From contig NZ_JMQM01000001.1 of the NCBI RefSeq assembly GCF_000733725.1, positions 1,488,001-1,552,000 of the forward strand: a DNA stretch of 64,000 nt, in the 5' to 3' direction. Shown one piece after another: positions 53,770 to 64,000 of the stretch. Numbering within the stretch: position 1 is the stretch's first letter; every line of letters begins with the position of its first letter. Source of the stretch: Nitratireductor basaltis (lineage in GTDB: Bacteria > Pseudomonadota > Alphaproteobacteria > Rhizobiales > Rhizobiaceae). The translations under genes were made by a program, and so were the position numbers. Below the pieces are notes generated by a model, which worked only from the letters and a program-made list of their open reading frames with translations, was not told the DNA's origin and did not search any database.

Positions 53770-54888
53770 ATGAGCGATGGATGGGCGATCGGCCTGATGA
53801 CGGGCACCGTTCTCGACGGCAATATCGATATCGCGATGCTGCGCACGGATGGGGAACGGATTTTCGAGTTCGGCCCCTATGAATTGGTGGCCTATCCCGC
53901 AGGCATCGTACCGCTGTTGCGGGAAGCCATGCAGGCAGCAATACAGTGGCGCTTCGTTGGCAGCGAGCCGGAAATCTTCGCCAGGGCCGAGCGCGCCCTG
54001 ACCACGGCCCAGTCAGAGGCGGTGAACGCCTTCCTGTCGCGCCACGGCTTTGAAGCGAAGCAGATATCCGCAATCGGATTCCACGGACAAACAGTGCTGC
54101 ATGTAGCGCCACAGAATGGTGTCAAAGGACAGACGCGACAGTTGGGCGACGGCGCCTTGATGGCCGACATTACCGGCATCACAACCGTCCATGATTTTCG
54201 CAGTGCCGATATCAAGGCTGGCGGTCAGGGAGCACCACTCGCACCCGTCTACCACCGAGCGCTGCTTGAGCAGATCGGCGCGGGCGCGGATACGGCCATT
54301 TTGAACCTGGGTGGCGTGGCCAATATAAGCTGGTGCCGGGGAAGCGAAATGGCCGCCTTCGACACCGGTCCTGCCAATGCCCCGGTCAATGACTGGGTGC
54401 GTGAACATACCGGGGGGGAGATGGATCGCGACGGCGCGATTGCCGCGCAAGGACAGGTGGACGAGGCGCTGCTGGAGACGCTTCTGGCTCATCCCTACAT
54501 GACACAGCGCTATCCAAAATCGCTCGACCGCAACGATTTTACGTCGAGTATGGCTGGAAACCTAAGCCTTGAAGACGGTGCGGCGACCCTGACCGCATTC
54601 TCTGCGGCAGCCGTGGGCAAGGCGCTCGATCTTCTGCCGCAACGCCCCACGCGCCTTATCCTTTGCGGCGGCGGACGGAAAAACCCGTACCTGAAGCGGG
54701 CCATTGCGGATCGGGCGCAGGTCGAAGCATGCGTGGCAGAGGACGTTGGCTTGCGCGGCGATGCGATAGAAGCCGAGTGCTTCGCCTATCTCGCCATGCG
54801 CAGCCTGCGCGACCTGCCGCTCAGCTATCCGGCCACCACCGGTGTCAGTGCACCGATCTGCGGCGGCAAGATCGAAGCGCGCGCATAA
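53770..54888 (+). CDS. anmK: Anhydro-N-acetylmuramic acid kinase
   Basis: A 372-residue enzyme phosphorylating 1,6-anhydroMurNAc in peptidoglycan recycling. The N-terminal motif [50 protein letters not shown] and [11 protein letters not shown] are as in AnmK. ATG 53770 is preceded by AAGGA; an earlier TTG would add 12 unrelated residues. It is the last core gene before the mobile element, 134 bases from the tRNA fragment. Confidence 0.92.
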
Positions 54889-55022
54889 ACTTTTCCAACA
54901 CCACCTTCCTGGCGGCACAATGTCACAAGCCACCGATCATGCGGCCTGCAGGGCGTTCCGGAAAAGTGGAAGACGATCAGGCAGTTGAGGCGCTCGAATT
55001 ACCGGCAATAAGACTTTGAATG

Positions 55023-55068
55023 TGGCGATCCCGGCAGGATTCGAACCTGCGACCATCGGCTTAGAAGG
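55023..55068 (-). pseudogene. 3' fragment of tRNA-Arg(TCT): element attachment site
   Basis: On the minus strand this holds the right half of a tRNA: anticodon loop CTTCTAA (anticodon TCT), the 3' anticodon stem, variable loop TGGTC, T arm GCAGG-TTCGAAT-CCTGC, acceptor strand CGGGATC, discriminator G and CCA. No acceptor 5' strand or D arm exists upstream. With an integrase gene 60 bases away, this is the att copy left at one end of an integrated element; the complete tRNA should lie at the other end, right of the window. Confidence 0.85.
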
Positions 55069-55127
55069 TCGAAACCCTACATTGTTTTCATTGATATTTT
55101 CTGCTCTATGTTGCGTCTATGTTGCAT

Positions 55128-56258
55128 TCATCCGAGCAAAGCGCTGGCAGCATCGGCCATTTCCTTGCCGTCATCCTTGCGCGGGAACAGGTGAGAATAA
55201 ACGTCTGCAGTGACCGCGATGGATGAGTGCCCCATGCGCGCCTGCACCGTCTTCATGTCGAGACTGAGCCCGCCTGCCTCTTTGGGGTTGATGAGCCATG
55301 AGGCATAGAAGTGCCTGAGCGCGTGCAGGCCGGTATAGGGCAGCCCTGCCTTCTTCATCGCTGGTTTCAGGCCACGGTTCACGACATTGGAATGTGATTC
55401 CGGATTGCCCTTTCCATTCGGGAAAACCAGATCCCCAGGCGGACAAGCAACCTTCCATTCCTTCAGCGTGTTGACCACGACAGGCGGGACCGGAACCGTC
55501 CGCTGCCCTGCATGTGACTTGGTGGAGCCGATTTCTCCCCACTTGTCTGCACGCTGCCTGACCGTGATCGTCGCCTTCTCCAATTCCACATCCTGCCAGC
55601 GCAAGCCCCTCAGTTCTGAGGAGCGCAAGCCGCTGAAGACCGCAGTGAGCAGGATCGGGCGCCAACGTCCCTCCAGCGCGCTCAGGAAGGCCCTGATCTC
55701 ATCCGGTGCGGGAATATCCACTCCCACCTCCAAAAGCTTCCTCTTGCGCTTCTCTGCCCCGTTGCGACGGCGAGACATTTCCTTCACGGCATTGCGTGTG
55801 ACAAGGCCCCTCTCCTGCGCATCCGAGAGCAAAGCCCCGAGGGCAGTCATTGCCTTGCCGACCATGGCAGGTGATCGACCTTCAGACCGCAGCTTGTCTG
55901 CAAAGGCCCGGGCGGCAGGAACGGTGATCTTGGTCAGCTTCTCATCACCGATGAAGGGCACGATGTGGAGATTGAGCCGCTGGCGATAGGCTTCGATGGT
56001 GGAGCGCTCCAGTCCAGCAGCCTCGCTGCTTTCAATCCACAGCTCCCCTGCCCGCTGGACCGTTACCGTATCGCGTTCTGCAACATGAACTCCTTCGCGT
56101 ATCTCAACGGCTGCCGTGGCTGCGAACTGGTCGGCTTCCTTCTTCTTCGCGAAAGTCTTCAGCCGGCGCTTGCCCCGTGCATCGGTGTAGTCGACCACCC
56201 AGGCAGTCTTTTCCTCACCCTTGCCGTTGATCCAGGTGCGCTTACGGACGGACATCAT
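55128..56258 (-). CDS. Tyrosine-type site-specific integrase
   Basis: A 376-residue recombinase. The N-terminal part has an AP2/Arm-type DNA-binding region (RKRTWINGKGEEKTAWVVDYTDARGKRRLKTF), then a SAM-like core-binding domain (STIEAYRQRLNLHIVPFIGDEKLTKI). The catalytic domain keeps all residues: Arg212 (GLRSSELRG), Lys247, His312-x2-Arg315 (HALRH), His344 (MGHSS) and Tyr354. Its start ATG overlaps the stop of the RHH regulator gene (TGATG), so expression is coupled to it. It likely integrated the element into tRNA-Arg. Confidence 0.94.
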   Translation of the reverse strand: MMSVRKRTWINGKGEEKTAWVVDYTDARGKRRLKTFAKKKEADQFAATAAVEIREGVHVAERDTVTVQRAGELWIESSEAAGLERSTIEAYRQRLNLHIVPFIGDEKLTKITVPAARAFADKLRSEGRSPAMVGKAMTALGALLSDAQERGLVTRNAVKEMSRRRNGAEKRKRKLLEVGVDIPAPDEIRAFLSALEGRWRPILLTAVFSGLRSSELRGLRWQDVELEKATITVRQRADKWGEIGSTKSHAGQRTVPVPPVVVNTLKEWKVACPPGDLVFPNGKGNPESHSNVVNRGLKPAMKKAGLPYTGLHALRHFYASWLINPKEAGGLSLDMKTVQARMGHSSIAVTADVYSHLFPRKDDGKEMADAASALLG

Positions 56259-56722
56259 CAATCCTCCCATGGCTGGCGCGGCACCTTCTCCGAAGCCTCA
56301 GAGGAGTTGTCGACTTCGATTGCCGCTAGGCCCGATGCGAGCACGCGGGCGAACTCAGACCTGTCACCGTCCGCTAGTATAGCCTCCCCCAATGAGCGTG
56401 CGAGGATCGACAGTGTCCGATAGGTTTCACGCTGCAGCTGCAGCAATCGTTCCTGATTGTTTAGCATCTCAAACAAGCTGCTGCGCTCTTCATACAAGCG
56501 AGCGATCTCGTCGGATTGGGATTCGACCTCACCCTCCAGCTTTGCCAGTTCGCTATCAACCTGAGCCCAGGCTGCCTGTGCTTTCTGGTAGTTCTCTATC
56601 CGCCAGATGATCTCCGCATTCATTGATCGGCCGTTCTGCTCGGCAGCGGCCTTCAGTTGATCTCTTAATCCGTCTGGCAAGCGTATCATCGCTTGCTCAG
56701 ACCCGCGGCTTACCTTTGCCAT
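56258..56722 (-). CDS. Arc/RHH-type DNA-binding regulator with coiled coil
   Basis: A 154-residue protein. Residues about 8-45 form a ribbon-helix-helix domain of the Arc type (EQAMIRLPDGLRDQLKAAAEQNGRSMNAEIIWRIENYQ). A long coiled coil follows (about 50-95: QVDSELAKLEGEVESQSDEIARLYEERSSLFEMLNNQERLLQL), then a helical tail. It is coupled to the integrase start and divergent from the excisionase-like gene, with three palindromic sites between them, so it probably controls integration/excision genes and itself. Confidence 0.82.
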   Translation of the reverse strand: MAKVSRGSEQAMIRLPDGLRDQLKAAAEQNGRSMNAEIIWRIENYQKAQAAWAQVDSELAKLEGEVESQSDEIARLYEERSSLFEMLNNQERLLQLQRETYRTLSILARSLGEAILADGDRSEFARVLASGLAAIEVDNSSEASEKVPRQPWED

Positions 56723-56747
56723 ACCCGCTACTCCAGTCTGTTGACCT

Positions 56748-56820
56748 AGCACTGTGCTAAATACCCGTTGACGTCAATATCAGCACGGTGCTAACAAATG
56801 GCTACCTTCAGCACGGTGCT
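56748..56820. promoter_or_regulatory. Three-copy operator AGCAC-N-GTGCT in the divergent promoter
   Basis: The sites are AGCACTGTGCT (56748-56758), AGCACGGTGCT (56782-56792) and AGCACGGTGCT (56810-56820), each a perfect 5+5 inverted repeat. Between the first two lies the palindrome TTGACGTCAA (56768-56777), which gives a TTGACG -35-like hexamer on both strands. Binding by the adjacent RHH protein is inference from position. Confidence 0.75.
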
Positions 56821-56844
56821 GATAGGCCGCAAGGGAGAAACTTT

Positions 56845-57027
56845 ATGGAAAAGATTGAGCTCATCTGGGGCTGCGAGGGCATAGCCAAAATCATCGGGCG
56901 CACGCCACGGGTGACCTTTTCACTTCTGGAAAAAGGTGAACTTCCGGCCAAGAAGGTCGGCGGCCGATGGGTAGCCGAGCGCAGCCAACTCATCGCCTTC
57001 TTCATGAAGACTGGAGAGGCCGCATGA
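56845..57027 (+). CDS. Small HTH protein (excisionase/AlpA-like)
   Basis: A 60-residue protein with a MerR-like winged HTH: CEGIAKIIGRTPRVTFSLLEKGELPAKKVGGRWVAERSQLIAFF. Such short proteins serve as excisionases or AlpA-type activators in integrated elements. AAGGGAGA lies 7 bases before ATG 56845. Its stop overlaps the next start (ATGA), so the two are coupled. Confidence 0.75.
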   Translation: MEKIELIWGCEGIAKIIGRTPRVTFSLLEKGELPAKKVGGRWVAERSQLIAFFMKTGEAA

Positions 57028-57764
57028 ATCAGAAAACGAAATGCCCCGGACGCGTTGCAGCGCAGTCCAGGGCCGAAACTCTTCCCCTCTCAAAAGGAAA
57101 TGAGCGACTGACTGATACCATGAGCAGGACCACACCCGCAAGCAACTGCAGCGACGAAGACCCTGCTATCGTTGCCACCCGCTCTTTCACGGCTTGGAAG
57201 CTGGAGCTCATCGACGCAATCACTTGCGACAAGCAACTTGCACACATTGATCGTGTAGTGGGCGTTCGCATCGTTCAGCACATCAACCGCAGAACCCGAG
57301 AGGCCAACCCCTCGCTGGCTCGTATTGCGGCGCAAGTAGGTATCAGCATCAAAACAGCTAAGCGAAGTGCAGCACGCCTGTGTCACAAGGAGTGCAGATG
57401 GTTCGCGCGAGCCCGTCCCAGCAGAACCGCCGGATATGTCTATCGGGTCAATGATGCCAAGGCACTGCATGTACTGGATGCAAAGGCGATGCGCGAGGAT
57501 CAAGCCAAGGAACTTCTGAGAGGCGAGAAACGGGAAATGTGGCAACGCCTCCGAGGGGACAGTTTAGTCCCTTCGCGAGGGTACGTATCAGAACATCTCG
57601 AGGGGACAAATGGTGACAATTGCGAGGGGACACCCTTGTCCCCGGAACACCTAGCTAAGAACCACCTACAAGAACACCATCATTCAGGCAGCGAGGGAAA
57701 CGGTTATTCTCTACATAGGGAAGCCGTCTCCAATTCCTATGCAGCGGCTTCAAGGGGGGCGTGA
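57024..57764 (+). CDS. Replication-type helix-turn-helix protein (HTH_36-like)
   Basis: A 246-residue protein. The middle part, about residues 68-135, is a winged HTH like those of plasmid and phage replication proteins (IDRVVGVRIVQHINRRTREANPSLARIAAQVGISIKTAKRSAARL). The rest is hydrophilic with no recognisable enzyme motif; the C-terminus is rich in His, Ser and Gly. The start ATG overlaps the upstream stop. A role in element replication or control is inference from the fold. Confidence 0.65.
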   Translation: MNQKTKCPGRVAAQSRAETLPLSKGNERLTDTMSRTTPASNCSDEDPAIVATRSFTAWKLELIDAITCDKQLAHIDRVVGVRIVQHINRRTREANPSLARIAAQVGISIKTAKRSAARLCHKECRWFARARPSRTAGYVYRVNDAKALHVLDAKAMREDQAKELLRGEKREMWQRLRGDSLVPSRGYVSEHLEGTNGDNCEGTPLSPEHLAKNHLQEHHHSGSEGNGYSLHREAVSNSYAAASRGA

Positions 57765-57765
57765 C

Positions 57766-57978
57766 ATGGCAGATCTTTCGCTCTTTTGATGAAAGCCTCC
57801 TGTTCAAGTGCTGGTCTTCCCTCGCGACCGCCGTGTGGGACGCATTCGTCACGTTGCCGGCAAGCTCGAGAACAAACGCCGTGATGCCGCGAAATCGGCG
57901 GCAGACGGCGCAATGATCGGGCCGACACATGGAAAGAGCAGGTATACTTCCTGCGCTGCCCGACATAGCCGCCTGTGA
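57766..57978 (+). pseudogene. Decayed DUF6074-like gene
   Basis: Behind a strong ribosome site (AAGGGGGG), the frame reads MADLSLF, then two TGA codons in tandem (57787-57792), then KPPVQVLVFPRDRRVGR and IRHVAGKLENKRRDAAKS. The similarity to the small rhizobial DUF6074 family continues (ADTWKEQVYFLR) only after a change of frame. DUF6074 normally has a Trp near the position of the first TGA. The two stops plus the frameshift make this a pseudogene. The family match is from memory. Confidence 0.55.
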
Positions 57979-58372
57979 GCACCAACCTAGAGTGCGATCT
58001 CGAGCACATGGCACAGGTGGACAAAGTGGAGAAGCTGAGGCCTAGGCGAGCAACGAGACATTCGCCTCACGAGCACGCTCATCCGATATATACGAAGGGT
58101 CAGCGTTGTCACGCACTGGCGCCATCCGGCATCTCGTGGCACCTTTTATTCACTGTCACCTAAGGGGCCGACTACGGACTGGCCGGATCTGGCCTACGTA
58201 CTGGGATAGCCGATGTTCAGCCCACGCTCCCATGCCGGGCAGGCTTGAGATGGGATACCATGCCGCATCGCATTCCTTGACAGACTCCACCTTTCCTAAT
58301 CAACAGTTACAGATAACGAATCCTCAAACGGGGCCGGCACGCCTTTGCAAACTGTGGAGTGGCACGCTCACG
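57979..58372. other. Non-coding stretch upstream of hsdR
   Basis: About 390 bases with no convincing gene on either strand; the open frame running into hsdR gives low-complexity, Arg-rich sequence unlike any HsdR N-terminus. A TTGACA occurs at 58277-58282, about 90 bases before hsdR, with only weak -10 candidates 16-18 bases downstream, so an hsd promoter here is possible but not clear. Confidence 0.5.
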
Positions 58373-61300
58373 ATGAACACAACAGAAAGCGATCTCGAGG
58401 CGTCCCTTGTTTCGAAACTGCAGGACCTGAAATATGAGTATCGCCCGGATATCCGTGATCGAGCCTCGTTGGAGCAGAATTTCCGGGGGAAGTTCGAAGC
58501 GCTGAATCGCGTCCGCCTTACAGACGCCGAATTCGCCCGGCTTCTCGACGAGATTGTCACGCCCGACGTGTTCACCGCTGCCCGAACACTGCGCGAGAGA
58601 AACAGTTTCATCCGCGATGACGGCACGCCGCTGAATTACACTCTCGTCAACATCAGAGACTGGTGCAAGAACGCCTTCGAAGTGGTCAACCAGCTCCGTA
58701 TCAACACGGACAACAGCCACCATCGCTATGACGTCATTCTGCTGATCAACGGGGTGCCGGTCGCCCAGATCGAACTGAAGACCCTTGGCATAAGCCCCCG
58801 TCGCGCCATGGAACAGATCGTCGAATACAAGAACGACCCCGGCAACGGCTACACCAAGACAATCCTGTGCTTCCTGCAGCTGTTCATCATCAGCAACCGT
58901 GATCGGACATTTTACTTCGCGAACAACAATACGCGCCACTTTGCTTTCAATGCCGAGGAGCGCTTCCTGCCGGTTTATGAGTTCGCCGATAAAGGCAACA
59001 AGAAGATCGTCCATCTCGACAGCTTCGCCGAGACGTTCCTCGTCAAGTGCACGCTCGGCCAGACGATCAGCCGCTACATGGTTCTAGTCGCAAGCGAGCA
59101 AAAGCTCGTGATGATGCGGCCCTATCAGGTCTATGCGGTGAAAGCGATTGTCGAGTCCATCGCCCAGGACTGCGGCAATGGTTATGTCTGGCACACCACT
59201 GGCAGCGGCAAGACTCTGACGTCCTTCAAGGCATCAACGCTGCTGAAGGACAATCCGGACATTGAGAAGTGCCTTTTTGTCGTGGACCGGAAGGATCTGG
59301 ATCGGCAGACGCGTGAGGAGTTCAATAAGTTCCAAGAAGGCTGCGTCGAGGAAAACACCAATACCGCCTCCCTTGTTCGCCGTCTGCTTTCCGATGACTA
59401 CGCCGACAAGGTCATCGTCTGCACGATCCAGAAGCTGGGTCTCGCGCTGGATGAAAACAGCAAGCGCAACAAGCAGCATAAGAAGAGCGGCAGGAAGAGC
59501 TTCAAGGAGCAGCTCAAACCCCTGCGCGACAAGCGCATCGCCTTCATCTTCGACGAGTGTCACCGATCACAGTTTGGAGAGAACCACAAGGCGATTAAGG
59601 AGTTCTTCCCCCGCGCCCAGCTCTTCGGCTTCACCGGAACACCGATCTTTGAACAGAATGCCGCCCAGCAAAAGATCGAAGACACCCAAGCCAGTTTGAA
59701 GACGACGGAAGACCTTTTCCCGCAGCGCCTTCACACCTACACGATCACCCATGCCATTGAGGACGGAAATGTCCTCCGGTTCCATGTCGACTACTTCAAG
59801 CCGGAGGGTAAGAACGTACCCAAGCCTGGCGAACCAATGGCGAAACGCGCGGTGATCGAGGCAATTCTCGCCAAGCATGACCAAGCCACCGGCCAGCGCC
59901 GCTTCAACGCCCTGCTGGCTACAGCGTCGATCAATGACGCCATTGGATATTACGACCTGTTCAAGACCCTGCAGGCCGAGAAGCTGGCCGCCGATCCCGG
60001 CTTCCAGCCGCTGAATATCGCCTGCGTTTTCTCCCCGCCGGCCGAGGGCAATCCTGATGTGAAGCAGATCCAGGAAGACCTGCCGCAGGAGAAGGAAGAC
60101 AACGCGGTCGAGCCGGAGAAGAAGAAGGAAGCGCTAAAGGCGATCCTTGCCGATTACAACGCGCATTACGGCACAAATCATAAGATTGGCGAGTTCGACC
60201 TCTATTATCAGGACGTGCAGAAGCGCATCAAGGATCAGCAATGGCCGGATGCTGACCTTAAGAAGGCTTACCCTAATCAGGCGCATCACAAGATCGACAT
60301 CACGATTGTCGTCGACATGCTGCTGACCGGCTTTGATTCCAAGTTCCTGAATACCCTCTACGTCGACAAGAACCTGAAACATCATGGCCTGATCCAGGCA
60401 TTCTCGCGCACGAACCGGGTGCTGAACGCCACCAAGCCCTATGGCAACATCCTTGATTTTCGCCAGCAGCAGGACGCGGTCGATGCCGCCATCGCACTGT
60501 TCTCGGGCGAGGCTGCCGCCGAGAAGGCACGCGAAATCTGGCTGGTCGACAAGGCGCCCGTGGTCATCCAGAAACTGGAAACAGCCGTCCAGAAGCTTGA
60601 CGCCTTCATGAAATCGCAGGGCCTCGACTGCGCCCCCGAAGAGGTGCCGAACCTCAAAGGCGATGCGGCCCGTGCGGCCTTCGTCGAGCATTTCAAGGAG
60701 GTGCAGCGCCTCAAGACCCAGCTTGATCAGTACACCGACCTGACCGAAGAGAACCGCAATTCCATCGAGGAGGTCCTGCCGCGTGACAATCTTCTGGGCT
60801 TCCGCGGCGCTTATCTGGAAACCGCTCAGCGGCTTCGGGCCCAGCAGGGAAAGGGTGCGGAGACGGCAAGCCAGGAAGCCGACCAGCTGGATTTCGAGTT
60901 CGTCCTCTTCGCCTCGGCGGTCATCGACTATGATTACATCATGGGTCTGATCGCTCGTTATTCCGATGCCACCCCCGGCAAGCAGAAGATGAGCCGCGAG
61001 GAGTTGATCGGCCTGATCCAGACCGACGCCAAGTTCATGGACGAGCGCGAGGATATCGCGGCCTATATCAACACTCTCAAGGCGGGCGAGGGCCTGAGCG
61101 AGAAGGCCATCCGCGACGGTTACAGCCGTTTCAAGGCGGAGAAGGACGCGGGGGAACTGGCGGACATAGCGGACAAGCACGCGCTGAAGACCGATGCGCT
61201 GCAAGGTTTTGTCGATACCATCCTGCAACGCATGATCTTTGACGGCGAGGCGCTGACCGACCTGATGGAACCCCTTGGCCTGAACTGGAAGGCGCGGCGA

Positions 61301-61393
61301 GTGAAGGAACTGGACCTGATGGCCGACCTGATGCCGCTGCTGCTGAAGCGCGCCGGTGGGCGCGAGATTTCGGGACTGAGCGCTTATGAGTAG
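58373..61393 (+). CDS. hsdR: Type I restriction enzyme subunit R
   Basis: A 1006-residue motor-nuclease. The N-terminal PD-(D/E)xK site is visible (HHRYDVILLINGVPVAQIELKT, Asp and Glu-x-Lys at about residues 118-134). The helicase part has Walker A HTTGSGKT (about 273), DEAD-like DECHRS (about 392) and motif III FTGTPI (about 419), then MLLTGFDSKFLNTLYVDKNLKHHGLIQAFSRTNR. It resembles the EcoR124I/EcoprrI (type IC) class. ATG 58373 gives MNTTESDLEASLVSKLQDL, a normal N-terminus. The stop overlaps hsdS by 8 bases. Confidence 0.95.
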   Translation: MNTTESDLEASLVSKLQDLKYEYRPDIRDRASLEQNFRGKFEALNRVRLTDAEFARLLDEIVTPDVFTAARTLRERNSFIRDDGTPLNYTLVNIRDWCKNAFEVVNQLRINTDNSHHRYDVILLINGVPVAQIELKTLGISPRRAMEQIVEYKNDPGNGYTKTILCFLQLFIISNRDRTFYFANNNTRHFAFNAEERFLPVYEFADKGNKKIVHLDSFAETFLVKCTLGQTISRYMVLVASEQKLVMMRPYQVYAVKAIVESIAQDCGNGYVWHTTGSGKTLTSFKASTLLKDNPDIEKCLFVVDRKDLDRQTREEFNKFQEGCVEENTNTASLVRRLLSDDYADKVIVCTIQKLGLALDENSKRNKQHKKSGRKSFKEQLKPLRDKRIAFIFDECHRSQFGENHKAIKEFFPRAQLFGFTGTPIFEQNAAQQKIEDTQASLKTTEDLFPQRLHTYTITHAIEDGNVLRFHVDYFKPEGKNVPKPGEPMAKRAVIEAILAKHDQATGQRRFNALLATASINDAIGYYDLFKTLQAEKLAADPGFQPLNIACVFSPPAEGNPDVKQIQEDLPQEKEDNAVEPEKKKEALKAILADYNAHYGTNHKIGEFDLYYQDVQKRIKDQQWPDADLKKAYPNQAHHKIDITIVVDMLLTGFDSKFLNTLYVDKNLKHHGLIQAFSRTNRVLNATKPYGNILDFRQQQDAVDAAIALFSGEAAAEKAREIWLVDKAPVVIQKLETAVQKLDAFMKSQGLDCAPEEVPNLKGDAARAAFVEHFKEVQRLKTQLDQYTDLTEENRNSIEEVLPRDNLLGFRGAYLETAQRLRAQQGKGAETASQEADQLDFEFVLFASAVIDYDYIMGLIARYSDATPGKQKMSREELIGLIQTDAKFMDEREDIAAYINTLKAGEGLSEKAIRDGYSRFKAEKDAGELADIADKHALKTDALQGFVDTILQRMIFDGEALTDLMEPLGLNWKARRVKELDLMADLMPLLLKRAGGREISGLSAYE

Positions 61394-62681
61394 TAAGGGA
61401 AGGTCATCAGCCGTGATGGGCGGTGGGGCAGTGTCCGTGCCTGAAAGGCGTTTTCCTGACTTTCATGAGGCAGGGGCTTGGAAGAGTGTTTCCCTGGGTT
61501 CTGTGGCGTCGATCAGCACCAAGAAGGTTGGGAACAAGACATGTATCCCAATGAGCATCACTTCTGGTGTTGGCCTTGTGAGCCAGATGGAGAAATTCGG
61601 ACGGATCATCGCTGGTGAGTCATATAAGAACTATTTGCTCTTGCAGAAGAATGACTTCGCCTACAACAAGAGCGCGACAAAGGAATTTCCAGAGGGGTTT
61701 ATTTCGCTTTACTCTGGTGAGGAGCTTGCCGCTGTCCCCAACAGTATCTTCACGTGCTTCCGTGTCAAGGAAGATGCGGTATCGCCGAGCTACTTGAACT
61801 ACCTATTTCTTGGAAATCTGCACGGACGGTGGTTGCGGAGGTTCATCGAAGTCGGTGCCCGCGCCCACGGGTCTCTTAGCATTAATGATCGTGATCTGTT
61901 GGCTTTGCCCGTACCGGTCCCAGCGGGTCCGAACTCTCTGAGGGAACAACAAAAGATCGCCGACTGTCTGGACTCGGCGGACGCGCTGATTACCGCTCAG
62001 GGGCGAAAGGTGGAGGCACTGAAAGCCCACAAGAAGGGCCTGATGCAACAGCTTTTCCCACAGGAAGGCGAAACACAACCCCGCCTTCGCTTTCCGGAGT
62101 TTCGGGATGCAGACGATTGGAAGGAAGTGACGCTTGCCAAATTCATCGAGGAGTTTCGAGAGCAATCGACGGTTCAAGATGAATATGAAGTTATGACCTC
62201 TGCTCGAAGCGGCTTGGTGAGGCAAAGGGAATATTATGACAATGATCGAATTACTGAGCGGGATAATGTCGGCTTTAATGTAATTCCACCCAATTACATG
62301 ACTTACCGAAGTCGTAGTGATAATCGGAAATTCTACTTCAACGAGAATAAACTTGGAGTAACAGGAATTGTAAGTATTTATTATCCCGTTTTTCGAATCC
62401 TGAACGGCTCGAACAAATTCTTCATAGAGCTTTTTTCGATGTTTTCGAGAATTATTGGGATGTACAGCGTTGGAACTTCGCAAACAGTCCTATCATTCAA
62501 TCAACTTAAAAAGATTAAGCTTCCGGTTCCCGGCGAGGCTGAACAACAGCGGATCGCCGACTGCCTCGCCTCGCTTGACGACCTGATCGCCGCCGAAGCC
62601 CGAAAACTCGATGCGCTCAAGACCCACAAGAAGGGTCTAATGCAGCAGCTTTTCCCTTCAGTCGCGGTGGGTGATGCATGA
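61386..62681 (+). CDS. hsdS: Type I restriction-modification specificity subunit S
   Basis: A 431-residue protein with two target-recognition domains, about residues 20-190 and 245-380. Each is followed by a conserved helix (EQQKIADCLDSADALI...KVEALKAHKKGLMQQLFP and EQQRIADCLASLDDLI...KLDALKTHKKGLMQQLFP), the in-protein repeat of type IC HsdS. The two domains differ in sequence, so a bipartite asymmetric DNA site is expected; the site cannot be predicted. The DNA for the second domain (about 62150-62520) is clearly AT-richer than its surroundings. It overlaps hsdR and the nuclease gene. Confidence 0.93.
   Translation: MSSKGRSSAVMGGGAVSVPERRFPDFHEAGAWKSVSLGSVASISTKKVGNKTCIPMSITSGVGLVSQMEKFGRIIAGESYKNYLLLQKNDFAYNKSATKEFPEGFISLYSGEELAAVPNSIFTCFRVKEDAVSPSYLNYLFLGNLHGRWLRRFIEVGARAHGSLSINDRDLLALPVPVPAGPNSLREQQKIADCLDSADALITAQGRKVEALKAHKKGLMQQLFPQEGETQPRLRFPEFRDADDWKEVTLAKFIEEFREQSTVQDEYEVMTSARSGLVRQREYYDNDRITERDNVGFNVIPPNYMTYRSRSDNRKFYFNENKLGVTGIVSIYYPVFRILNGSNKFFIELFSMFSRIIGMYSVGTSQTVLSFNQLKKIKLPVPGEAEQQRIADCLASLDDLIAAEARKLDALKTHKKGLMQQLFPSVAVGDA
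62028..62059 (+). repeat. Direct repeat in hsdS, copy 1
   Basis: A 32-base stretch coding HKKGLMQQLFP, repeated with three mismatches at 62625-62656. It could allow recombination between or within hsdS alleles that swaps or deletes the second target-recognition domain. Confidence 0.8.
62625..62656 (+). repeat. Direct repeat in hsdS, copy 2
   Basis: The second copy of the 32-base repeat encoding HKKGLMQQLFP at the end of the distal conserved region; see copy 1. Confidence 0.8.
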
Positions 62682-63907
62682 GAGGCATCCGCACTTATAC
62701 GGGCCTGGGCAAGCTGGTGGCGCGGCTTCGGGACGACCTGAACACAGCCGACCTGGTGTTGCTTTACGCCTATAACCGCACCGGAAAGACACGCCTCTCG
62801 ATGGAGTTCAAGGACGCCGGCAAGCGCAAGCATAAGATGAAGAACCCGACCGGCACGCCCGACACGCTCTATTTCAACGCCTTCACCGAGGATCTGTTCG
62901 TCTGGGAAAACGACCTCGAGGGCGACAGTGTGCGCCGCCTGCAACTGAACGAGAAGTCGTCCTTCTTTAACGCTATGACCGAACTTGCGCTGGACGAAAC
63001 CATTGCCCGGTACCTCTTCAGATATGCCGACTTCGAATTCGATTTCACCTACAAGGAGGTACAGCAGGACAAGGATACCATCTCCAAGCCGGATTTCGTG
63101 AGCTTCCGAAAAGGCGGCGAGGCAAACATCAAGGTGTCGCGCGGCGAACAAAACATCTTTATCTGGTGCGTCTTCATGGCGATCTGTGAACGGATGCTGG
63201 ATGGGCATGAATCCTATCAGGGGAAGAAGTACCTCTACATCGACGACCCAATCTCGTCGCTGGACGACAACAACGCCATCTCCGTCGCCTGCGATCTCGC
63301 CAAGCTTCTTCGTCGGGCGGCCACGCGAAAGGATGCCAACGGTGCGTCCGCTCCAATCAAGGTGATTCTTTCTTCGCACCACGCGCTGTTCTTCAACGTG
63401 ATGTGCAACGAAGTGGGTAGGCGGGCCGATGGCGAACCGAAGATCACCCACAAGCGCTATTTTCTGCACCGCCCAAATGGCGATGGCGCCTACACGCTTC
63501 AGGCAACGGAGGATACGCCGTTCTTCCACCATGTCGCCACCTTAGCCGAGTTGCTTCGCGCCGCCGATCCCGCGAAGGGCAAGCTCTACACTTTCCATTT
63601 CAACGCCTTGCGCAGCGTCATGGAGAAGACGGCATCCTTCTTCGGGCACTCAAGCATCGCCTTCTGCCTGAAGGCGCTCGACAACGACGAGGACCGCGCG
63701 CTGTTCAACCGAGCCCTGAACCTGTTGAGTCATGGCGCCTACGCAATCCATGAGCCGACCGAGATGGGCGAGGACAATAAGGAACTCTTCCGCCGCATCC
63801 TTCGCGATTTCGTCACGCGGTTCGAGTTCTCCTTGCCGGGCGCTGTTTCCGCCCCGTCCGCAGCTCCGGCATACACTCCCGTCCCTCAGGAAGTACCCGC
63901 ACAATGA
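62678..63907 (+). CDS. prrC: PrrC-like anticodon nuclease (ABC ATPase + ACNase)
   Basis: A 409-residue protein. The N-terminal ABC/SMC-type ATPase has Walker A AYNRTGKT (31-38), signature-like SRGEQ (154-158), Walker B YLYIDDPISSLDD (185-197) and a switch His in ILSSHH (234/235). The C-terminal domain has Arg312-x3-Glu316 (ALRSVMEKT) and His352 (NLLSHGAY), matching in order and spacing the triad Arg320-Glu324-His356 of E. coli PrrC (396 residues), which cuts tRNA-Lys at the anticodon when its partner restriction enzyme is inhibited. It lies between hsdS and hsdM with ATGA overlaps at both ends. Target tRNA and trigger are unknown. Alternative: another RloC/AAA-type effector. Confidence 0.82.
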   Translation: MRGIRTYTGLGKLVARLRDDLNTADLVLLYAYNRTGKTRLSMEFKDAGKRKHKMKNPTGTPDTLYFNAFTEDLFVWENDLEGDSVRRLQLNEKSSFFNAMTELALDETIARYLFRYADFEFDFTYKEVQQDKDTISKPDFVSFRKGGEANIKVSRGEQNIFIWCVFMAICERMLDGHESYQGKKYLYIDDPISSLDDNNAISVACDLAKLLRRAATRKDANGASAPIKVILSSHHALFFNVMCNEVGRRADGEPKITHKRYFLHRPNGDGAYTLQATEDTPFFHHVATLAELLRAADPAKGKLYTFHFNALRSVMEKTASFFGHSSIAFCLKALDNDEDRALFNRALNLLSHGAYAIHEPTEMGEDNKELFRRILRDFVTRFEFSLPGAVSAPSAAPAYTPVPQEVPAQ

Positions 63908-64000
63908 ACGACCAAATGCAAAAGCAACTGGGTAAGACACTCTGGAATATCGCCGACACGCTGCGCGGAGCGATGAACGCGGACGATTTCCGCGACTACA
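63904..64000 (+). CDS. hsdM: Type I restriction-modification methyltransferase M, N-terminal part (cut by window edge)
   Basis: Only 32 codons are present, MNDQMQKQLGKTLWNIADTL then RGAMNADDFRDY, which is the typical N-terminus of HsdM (HsdM_N helical domain). The start ATG overlaps the nuclease stop (ATGA), so the four genes form one tightly coupled operon. The catalytic motifs lie outside the window. With HsdS it would form the methylase M2S1. Confidence 0.88.
   Translation, partial: MNDQMQKQLGKTLWNIADTLRGAMNADDFRDY

Follow-up and report, generated by a model that had tools for sequence, protein, structure and literature searches.

What is a 409-aa ATPase-like protein encoded between hsdS and hsdM of a type I restriction locus in Nitratireductor basaltis? 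The question is raised by a 64,000-nt stretch of contig NZ_JMQM01000001.1 (positions 1,488,001 to 1,552,000), referred to here as the window. The original prediction, made from the letters and translated open reading frames (ORFs), had proposed a PrrC-type tRNA anticodon nuclease within a type I restriction operon on a mobile element. The ORF, coordinates and frame that it gave for the gene, prrC (62678..63907, + strand), are correct, and the comparisons described below support the product as a PrrC orthologue, a new member of an already known system. Very probably, this nuclease would serve as a second defence line, backing up the type IC-like restriction-modification enzyme encoded alongside it, held latent until released by phage inhibition or a nucleotide change, and would then cut tRNA, most likely tRNA-Lys. 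The prrC locus would thus place a PrrC guard system that is complete and looks intact on a mobile island of a lineage only distantly related to E. coli.

The family assignment is primarily carried by profile and pairwise comparisons. A search with hidden Markov models, run on the whole protein, places the PADLOC PrrC model first (420 bits, E 1.8e-126, residues 9-385), which bears out the predicted family, and the product aligns along its length with a 396-aa E. coli PrrC at 32% identity. This comparator (L091, annotated 'anticodon nuclease', from an IncY plasmid) has R320, E324 and H356, the residue numbers published for E. coli PrrC (PMC2610378, PMC3014915), and is taken here to represent that protein. 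Together with the Pfam match to AAA_13 (E 1.6e-12) and the alignment with 99 other PrrC proteins, the PADLOC match predicts an ABC-ATPase joined to a C-terminal anticodon nuclease of the HEPN type. No NCBIfam model matched the product above cut-off, and the PDB returned no match to the single sequence at E up to 10 or to a profile at E up to 0.01.

The same domain combination occurs in RloC, which shares the ABC-ATPase and the R-x3-E...H nuclease triad (PMC2610378). In an alternative reading, the gene would encode an ABC-HEPN nuclease of the RloC kind, a sensor of DNA damage that lies in the operon only by accident. AAA_13 is a general family, and other ABC proteins are also weakly matched in PADLOC, among them the second-best model, PDC-S06. 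The E value of that model is 1.4e-9, however, far behind that of PrrC, and the 409 residues contain no long coiled-coil insert and leave no room for a zinc hook, whereas RloC proteins are 658-897 aa long, carry a zinc-hook coiled-coil insert, are rarely linked to a restriction locus and excise the wobble nucleotide (PMC2610378). The product has a putative PrrC box at residues 64-80 (62867..62917, + strand), where LYFNAFTEDLFVWENDL is aligned with LYYNAFTEDLFYWDNDL of E. coli PrrC. The concept of the box is taken from PMC3014915, in a section that does not give its letters, and the assignment of these residues is our own; the box is described in PrrC only and not in RloC (PMC2610378). The usual place of prrC, in both clades of the family described below, is right after hsdS: the hsdS match ends at most 60 bp from prrC in 82 of the 95 loci that have an upstream match and more than 300 bp away in 10, a count that leaves aside the window and L072, where no hsdS match was found. 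An RloC identity was rejected on size, PrrC box and PADLOC score, and this alternative is extremely unlikely.

Conservation of single residues was read from a 100-row alignment composed of the window protein, 79 of 80 genome-scan loci, L083, four plasmid loci and 15 proteins from a whole-genome search. L072 (319 aa), L110 (a split fragment) and L122 (fetched later) were left out, as were L001, L002 and L084, which are the window itself, and L085-L090, which match weakly and show neither an Hsd nor a PrrC match. The predicted motif positions hold: AYNRTGKT at 31-38, SRGEQ at 154-158, IDDP at 188-191, SSHH with the switch His at 232-235, R312-x3-E316 and S351-H352. The position given for Walker A (62768..62791, + strand) stands, with the refinement that the motif is a variant in which Arg34 occupies the place of Gly43 of E. 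coli PrrC. In the ATPase half, the signature residues S154-G156, DDP at 189-191 and His234 are present; K37 and T38 are kept in 98 of 100 rows (two gaps), S154 in 99 and both D190 and H234 in all 100.

The predicted nuclease active site, R312-x3-E316 ... R345-x6-H352 (63611..63733, + strand), is equally constant, with R312, E316 and R345 in 100/100 rows and H352 in 99/100. Its columns match R320, E324 and H356 of E. coli PrrC, and Arg and His are 40 residues apart in this protein against 36 in the E. coli one, in agreement with the original prediction. The bare pattern by itself is weak evidence, as R-x3-E-x25-55-S-H arises in 823 of 20,000 shuffles of residues 240-409; the triad is nevertheless solid, because the column-by-column alignment with PrrC orthologues keeps R312, E316 and H352, and a chance triad was rejected on that ground. 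R345 and H352 also form a motif of HEPN type, the motif of the HEPN RNase superfamily being R-x4-6-H (PMC3710099). The two single-row exceptions both fall in the clade of the window protein: D189 is replaced in one row, and H352 in L036. In the latter locus (L036:251-1441, a Planctomycetota metagenome-assembled genome), Arg stands at the catalytic His position; the copy may be inactive, or the assembly may be wrong here.

prrC lies within an hsdR-hsdS-prrC-hsdM operon that appears to be intact and whose R and M subunits are type IC-like, as judged from sequence matches and motifs, in agreement with the type I operon and type Ic partner that had been predicted. hsdR (58373..61393, + strand) encodes 1006 aa from ATG 58373, the listed ORF opening at TTG 58106, and its product matches EcoR124_C at E 3.1e-70; all five PDB matches of HsdR at E up to 0.001 are type I HsdR proteins (E 2e-114 to 2e-113), one of them named EcoR124II. 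hsdS (61386..62681, + strand) contains two Methylase_S stretches (Pfam PF01420, E 1.9e-16), and its stop overlaps the prrC start in an ATGA. A second ATGA joins the prrC stop to the start of hsdM (63904..64000, + strand), which continues beyond the window to C1:1553556 and encodes 550 aa; it was taken from the extended locus record L002 (10905-12557). The PDB ranking of HsdM is headed by 3lkd, with the EcoR124II M protein second. HsdR carries ELKT, TGSGKT and DECH and HsdM carries NPPF, motifs that we take to have their customary meanings, and their retention indicates that the restriction enzyme looks intact. Since hsdR, hsdS, prrC and hsdM overlap in turn, they probably constitute a single translationally coupled operon.

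The mechanism proposed for this system is modelled on E. coli PrrC and on PrrC170, from which latency, trigger, cleavage, target and phage protection are all carried over to the prrC product. The ABC-ATPase half would probably attach PrrC to the Hsd complex and keep it inactive there. A phage product that inhibits the restriction enzyme, or changed nucleotide pools, would act as the trigger, and a nucleotide-dependent rearrangement would free the C-terminal HEPN-type nuclease. The freed nuclease would cut a tRNA, most likely tRNA-Lys, in its anticodon loop on the 5´ side of the wobble base, upon which translation and phage growth would stop. E. coli PrrC is described as latent while on the Hsd complex and as released by an anti-restriction peptide under the control of nucleotides (PMC3014915). 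PrrC170 of Klebsiella quasipneumoniae, found with DefenseFinder and cloned with 300 nt before HsdR, has an ABC-ATPase domain and is listed in the order HsdR, HsdS, PrrC, HsdM; it blocks T1 and T7, its toxin arrests growth, and tRNA sequencing in E. coli identified tRNA-Lys as its target (PMC11555353). As this tested locus is listed with the same genes in the same order as that of the window, both the kind of system and its mechanism are already known (PMC11555353). The E. coli EcoprrI system (L091) shares the PrrC box, ABC motifs, R-E-H triad, size, type IC-like partner and position of prrC directly after hsdS (PMC3014915, PMC2610378), and differs in its order hsdM-hsdS-prrC-hsdR, its PrrC being 32% identical to that of the window.

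The interpretation is supported by the AlphaFold2 model of the whole product, which has a mean predicted local distance difference test (pLDDT) of 84.6 and a predicted template modelling score of 0.72. At E up to 0.001 this model has 11 matches in the PDB: McrB and the heads of SMC, condensin, cohesin, RecN and Rad50 proteins, all at low template modelling (TM) scores of 0.21-0.31 by query length. Several observations weigh against the interpretation. The HEPN fold of the C-terminal part was not confirmed by structure prediction. A model of the 140 C-terminal residues (pLDDT 73.5) is mostly helical from residue ~284; in a Foldseek comparison with the PDB it gave no significant match (best E 1.1), and the HEPN protein 1wol appeared only at rank 41 (E 5.4, TM 0.40). 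Ala directly follows R345 (A in 77/86 rows), whereas a polar residue is typical of HEPN families at this position (PMC3710099). The P-loop differs from that of E. coli PrrC by R34. T277 occupies the column of Asp287 of the E. coli protein, so that the target could differ.

The last point concerns the choice of tRNA. In E. coli PrrC, residues 284-303 are involved in tRNA recognition and Asp287 contacts the modified wobble base (PMC3014915). The aligned stretch of the window protein, residues 277-293 (63506..63556, + strand), reads TEDTPFFHHVATLAELL and has T277 in the Asp287 column; DTPFFHHVA stands here in place of SNKSFSYHL of E. coli PrrC. The product accordingly lacks a tRNA-Lys recognition stretch with Asp287. 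Thr occupies this column in 85 of 90 rows of clade A, the clade that includes the window, and Asp in none, while 7 of the 10 rows of clade B, the E. coli clade, have Asp. These differences would fit a PrrC orthologue whose target is not tRNA-Lys(UUU), its recognition stretch having changed for another tRNA or modification state, and the recognition sequence is reported to vary among PrrC proteins, whose substrates may vary as well (PMC3014915). By that reported variation, Asp287 is not a family-defining feature of PrrC. PrrC170, however, targets tRNA-Lys in E. coli (PMC11555353), and we infer that it is a clade A protein from its listed gene order and from its 35% identity to EcoPrrC (PMC11555353). 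L093, a clade A protein from an E. coli IncC plasmid, is likewise 35.1% identical to L091 and is 51.8% identical to the prrC product, and it has the same DTPFFHHVA stretch. A different tRNA target is therefore unlikely, and tRNA-Lys is the best guess for the prrC product, as PrrC170, placed in clade A, targets it.

The P-loop substitution may bear on how the protein is controlled by nucleotides. In clade A, residue 34 is Arg in 74 rows, Gly in 13 and Ser in one, with two gaps; it is Gly in 10/10 rows of clade B. R34 is found in every ungapped row (74/74) of the 76-row subclade of the window, which has a support of 100 and spans several phyla, and in none of the other 24 rows. The 14 clade A rows with Gly or Ser are exactly those outside this subclade, so that one change is enough to explain R34 on that tree. 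Walker A mutations of E. coli PrrC abolish dTTP binding, and those of universally conserved residues abolish activity (PMC3014915). R34 could indicate that the protein is only an accessory of the restriction enzyme, PrrC-like but decayed or without catalytic activity, in which the ATPase has been lost. However, the remaining ATPase and nuclease residues examined are kept, apart from the two single-row exceptions in clade A, and the occurrence of R34 in all ungapped rows of a multi-phylum clade looks selected, not decayed. The ratio of nonsynonymous to synonymous substitution rates of prrC (0.064-0.114 against seven relatives) indicates purifying selection, and decay was rejected on this ratio together with the conserved residues; such an accessory is very improbable.

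For a functional PrrC, R34 may matter for nucleotide control. A more specific proposal, conceivable but doubtful, is that the R34 subclade comprises PrrC guards whose trigger differs from that of the dTTP/GTP-controlled E. coli enzyme, either through an altered bound nucleotide or through altered coupling of ATP, GTP or dTTP to nuclease release. If R34 does alter nucleotide binding or coupling, these would be guards that respond to a different signal. L093, the likely relative of PrrC170 (52% identical to the prrC product), has Gly at P-loop position 34, unlike the window protein; the E. coli enzyme likewise has the glycine, and Asp287, against Arg and Thr in the prrC product.

In this sample, PrrC forms two clades that track two operon orders. 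A quick tree search of the 100 rows separates clade A (90 rows, with the window) from clade B (10 rows, with E. coli), each with a support of 100; since the window protein was the query of the scan that supplied most of the clade A loci, close relatives of this protein are over-represented among them. Clade A is hsdR-first: 88 of 90 rows have hsdM downstream of prrC (the exceptions being L081, whose contig ends, and L030, where no hsdM was seen), and clade B is hsdM-first, with hsdR downstream of prrC in 10/10 rows. An hsdS match lies upstream of prrC in all 10 clade B rows and in 86 of the 90 clade A rows; the four without it are L028, L060 and L069, whose contigs start there, and L080, where the S match is inverted only. 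The place between hsdS and hsdM that the original prediction had taken to fit the E. coli model is thus the usual site in clade A, but in E. coli prrC lies between hsdS and hsdR instead. ATGA overlaps at the prrC start and stop occur in 69 and 70 of 89 clade A relatives, compared with 2 and 1 of 10 in clade B. The next hsd gene is more than 300 bp downstream of prrC in 18 of 99 loci, often with another gene between. Two order labels were set aside by hand: that of L105 (M-C-S-R), where a strong hsdS match is directly upstream of prrC and the second match has only 54 bits, and that of L030 (S-C-R, hsdM-first by the script), which depended on a 70-bit hsdR match 5.4 kb away.

A literature search confined to titles and the openings of abstracts returned no account of the two-clade gene-order rule or of the P-loop arginine, and no claim to a first report is made. 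The biochemistry in the cited texts, as far as they were available, mostly concerns E. coli PrrC, a member of the hsdM-first clade. Because its recognition stretch is altered and one of its subclades also has a changed P-loop, the hsdR-first clade offers a natural comparison for the evolution of substrate choice and nucleotide control.

In 24 close relatives, the best tblastn segments of PrrC, HsdM and HsdR have median identities to the window of 86%, 85% and 91%, compared with 40% for HsdS. PrrC is as conserved as HsdM, which suggests that it evolves with the constant core of the restriction enzyme while target specificity is swapped.

The predicted mobile element is supported by an integrase and by a repeat on both sides. 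A tyrosine integrase gene (55128..56270, - strand; Phage_integrase, E 1.3e-21) lies beside the left end of the island, where 49 bp from the 3´ portion of tRNA-Arg(TCT) are repeated (55023..55071, - strand; a 98% repeat). The intact tRNA-Arg(TCT) was located by ARAGORN beyond the window at C1:1562463-1562539. The repeat beside the integrase and the intact gene on the other side delimit an island of ~19.4 kb. Phage records gave no match, nor did Rfam at gathering threshold on 54000-64000. The genome of the window has one PrrC match, and 15 other genomes of its genus have no strong match and three weak ones (E 3.5e-5 to 8.3e-4). Of 398 genomes drawn evenly from the phylum Pseudomonadota, 16 match PrrC at E up to 1e-20, and the whole-genome search returned these 16 together with the genome of the window. 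Eight of the 16 belong to clade A, seven to clade B and one is a fragment (L110); the same gene-order rule holds in all 15 non-fragments. Arg34 is found in only one of these eight clade A proteins (L109), which indicates that the 76-row subclade is over-represented in the sample. Two of the 14 named control genomes, those of E. coli and Bacteroides ihuae, match at E 0.001, and only B. ihuae at 1e-20.

The same island carries, beyond the window, a DUF4145 protein (PF13643) of unknown function (L111:3942-4592). The record of the E. coli prr operon on the IncY plasmid (L091:1-16996) also contains terminase and late-promoter-activator genes. This plasmid is probably a P1-like phage-plasmid, its likeness to P1 being our assumption.

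Additional genes accompany prrC in other loci. A RhuM-family gene (PF13310) directly follows prrC in three relatives (L040:9167-10177, L031:9188-10189 and L030:2114-2974), which makes up three of the eight inserted ORFs scanned, and RhuM-like genes associated with PrrC/RloC were noted earlier (PMC3710099). An ORF of ~1.0 kb lies between prrC and hsdM in eight further relatives (L038, L049, L050, L054, L056, L059, L061 and L072). Other operon genes beside prrC encode a YhcG/DUF1016 nuclease (L053:6909-7919), a DUF3800 protein (L044:2109-2831) and a PIN-domain protein (L078:2121-2513). Unlike the operon of the window, L093 (L093:1946-5730, E. coli plasmid) and L122 (L122:967-4754, Klebsiella plasmid) have two extra genes between hsdR and hsdS, annotated in L122 as a TrlF-family AAA-like ATPase and an RNA-binding domain protein. 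In Dysgonomonas sp. PF1-14 (L080:7983-12493), prrC directly follows hsdR and the inverted hsdS match is downstream, which may represent a shuffled specificity locus.

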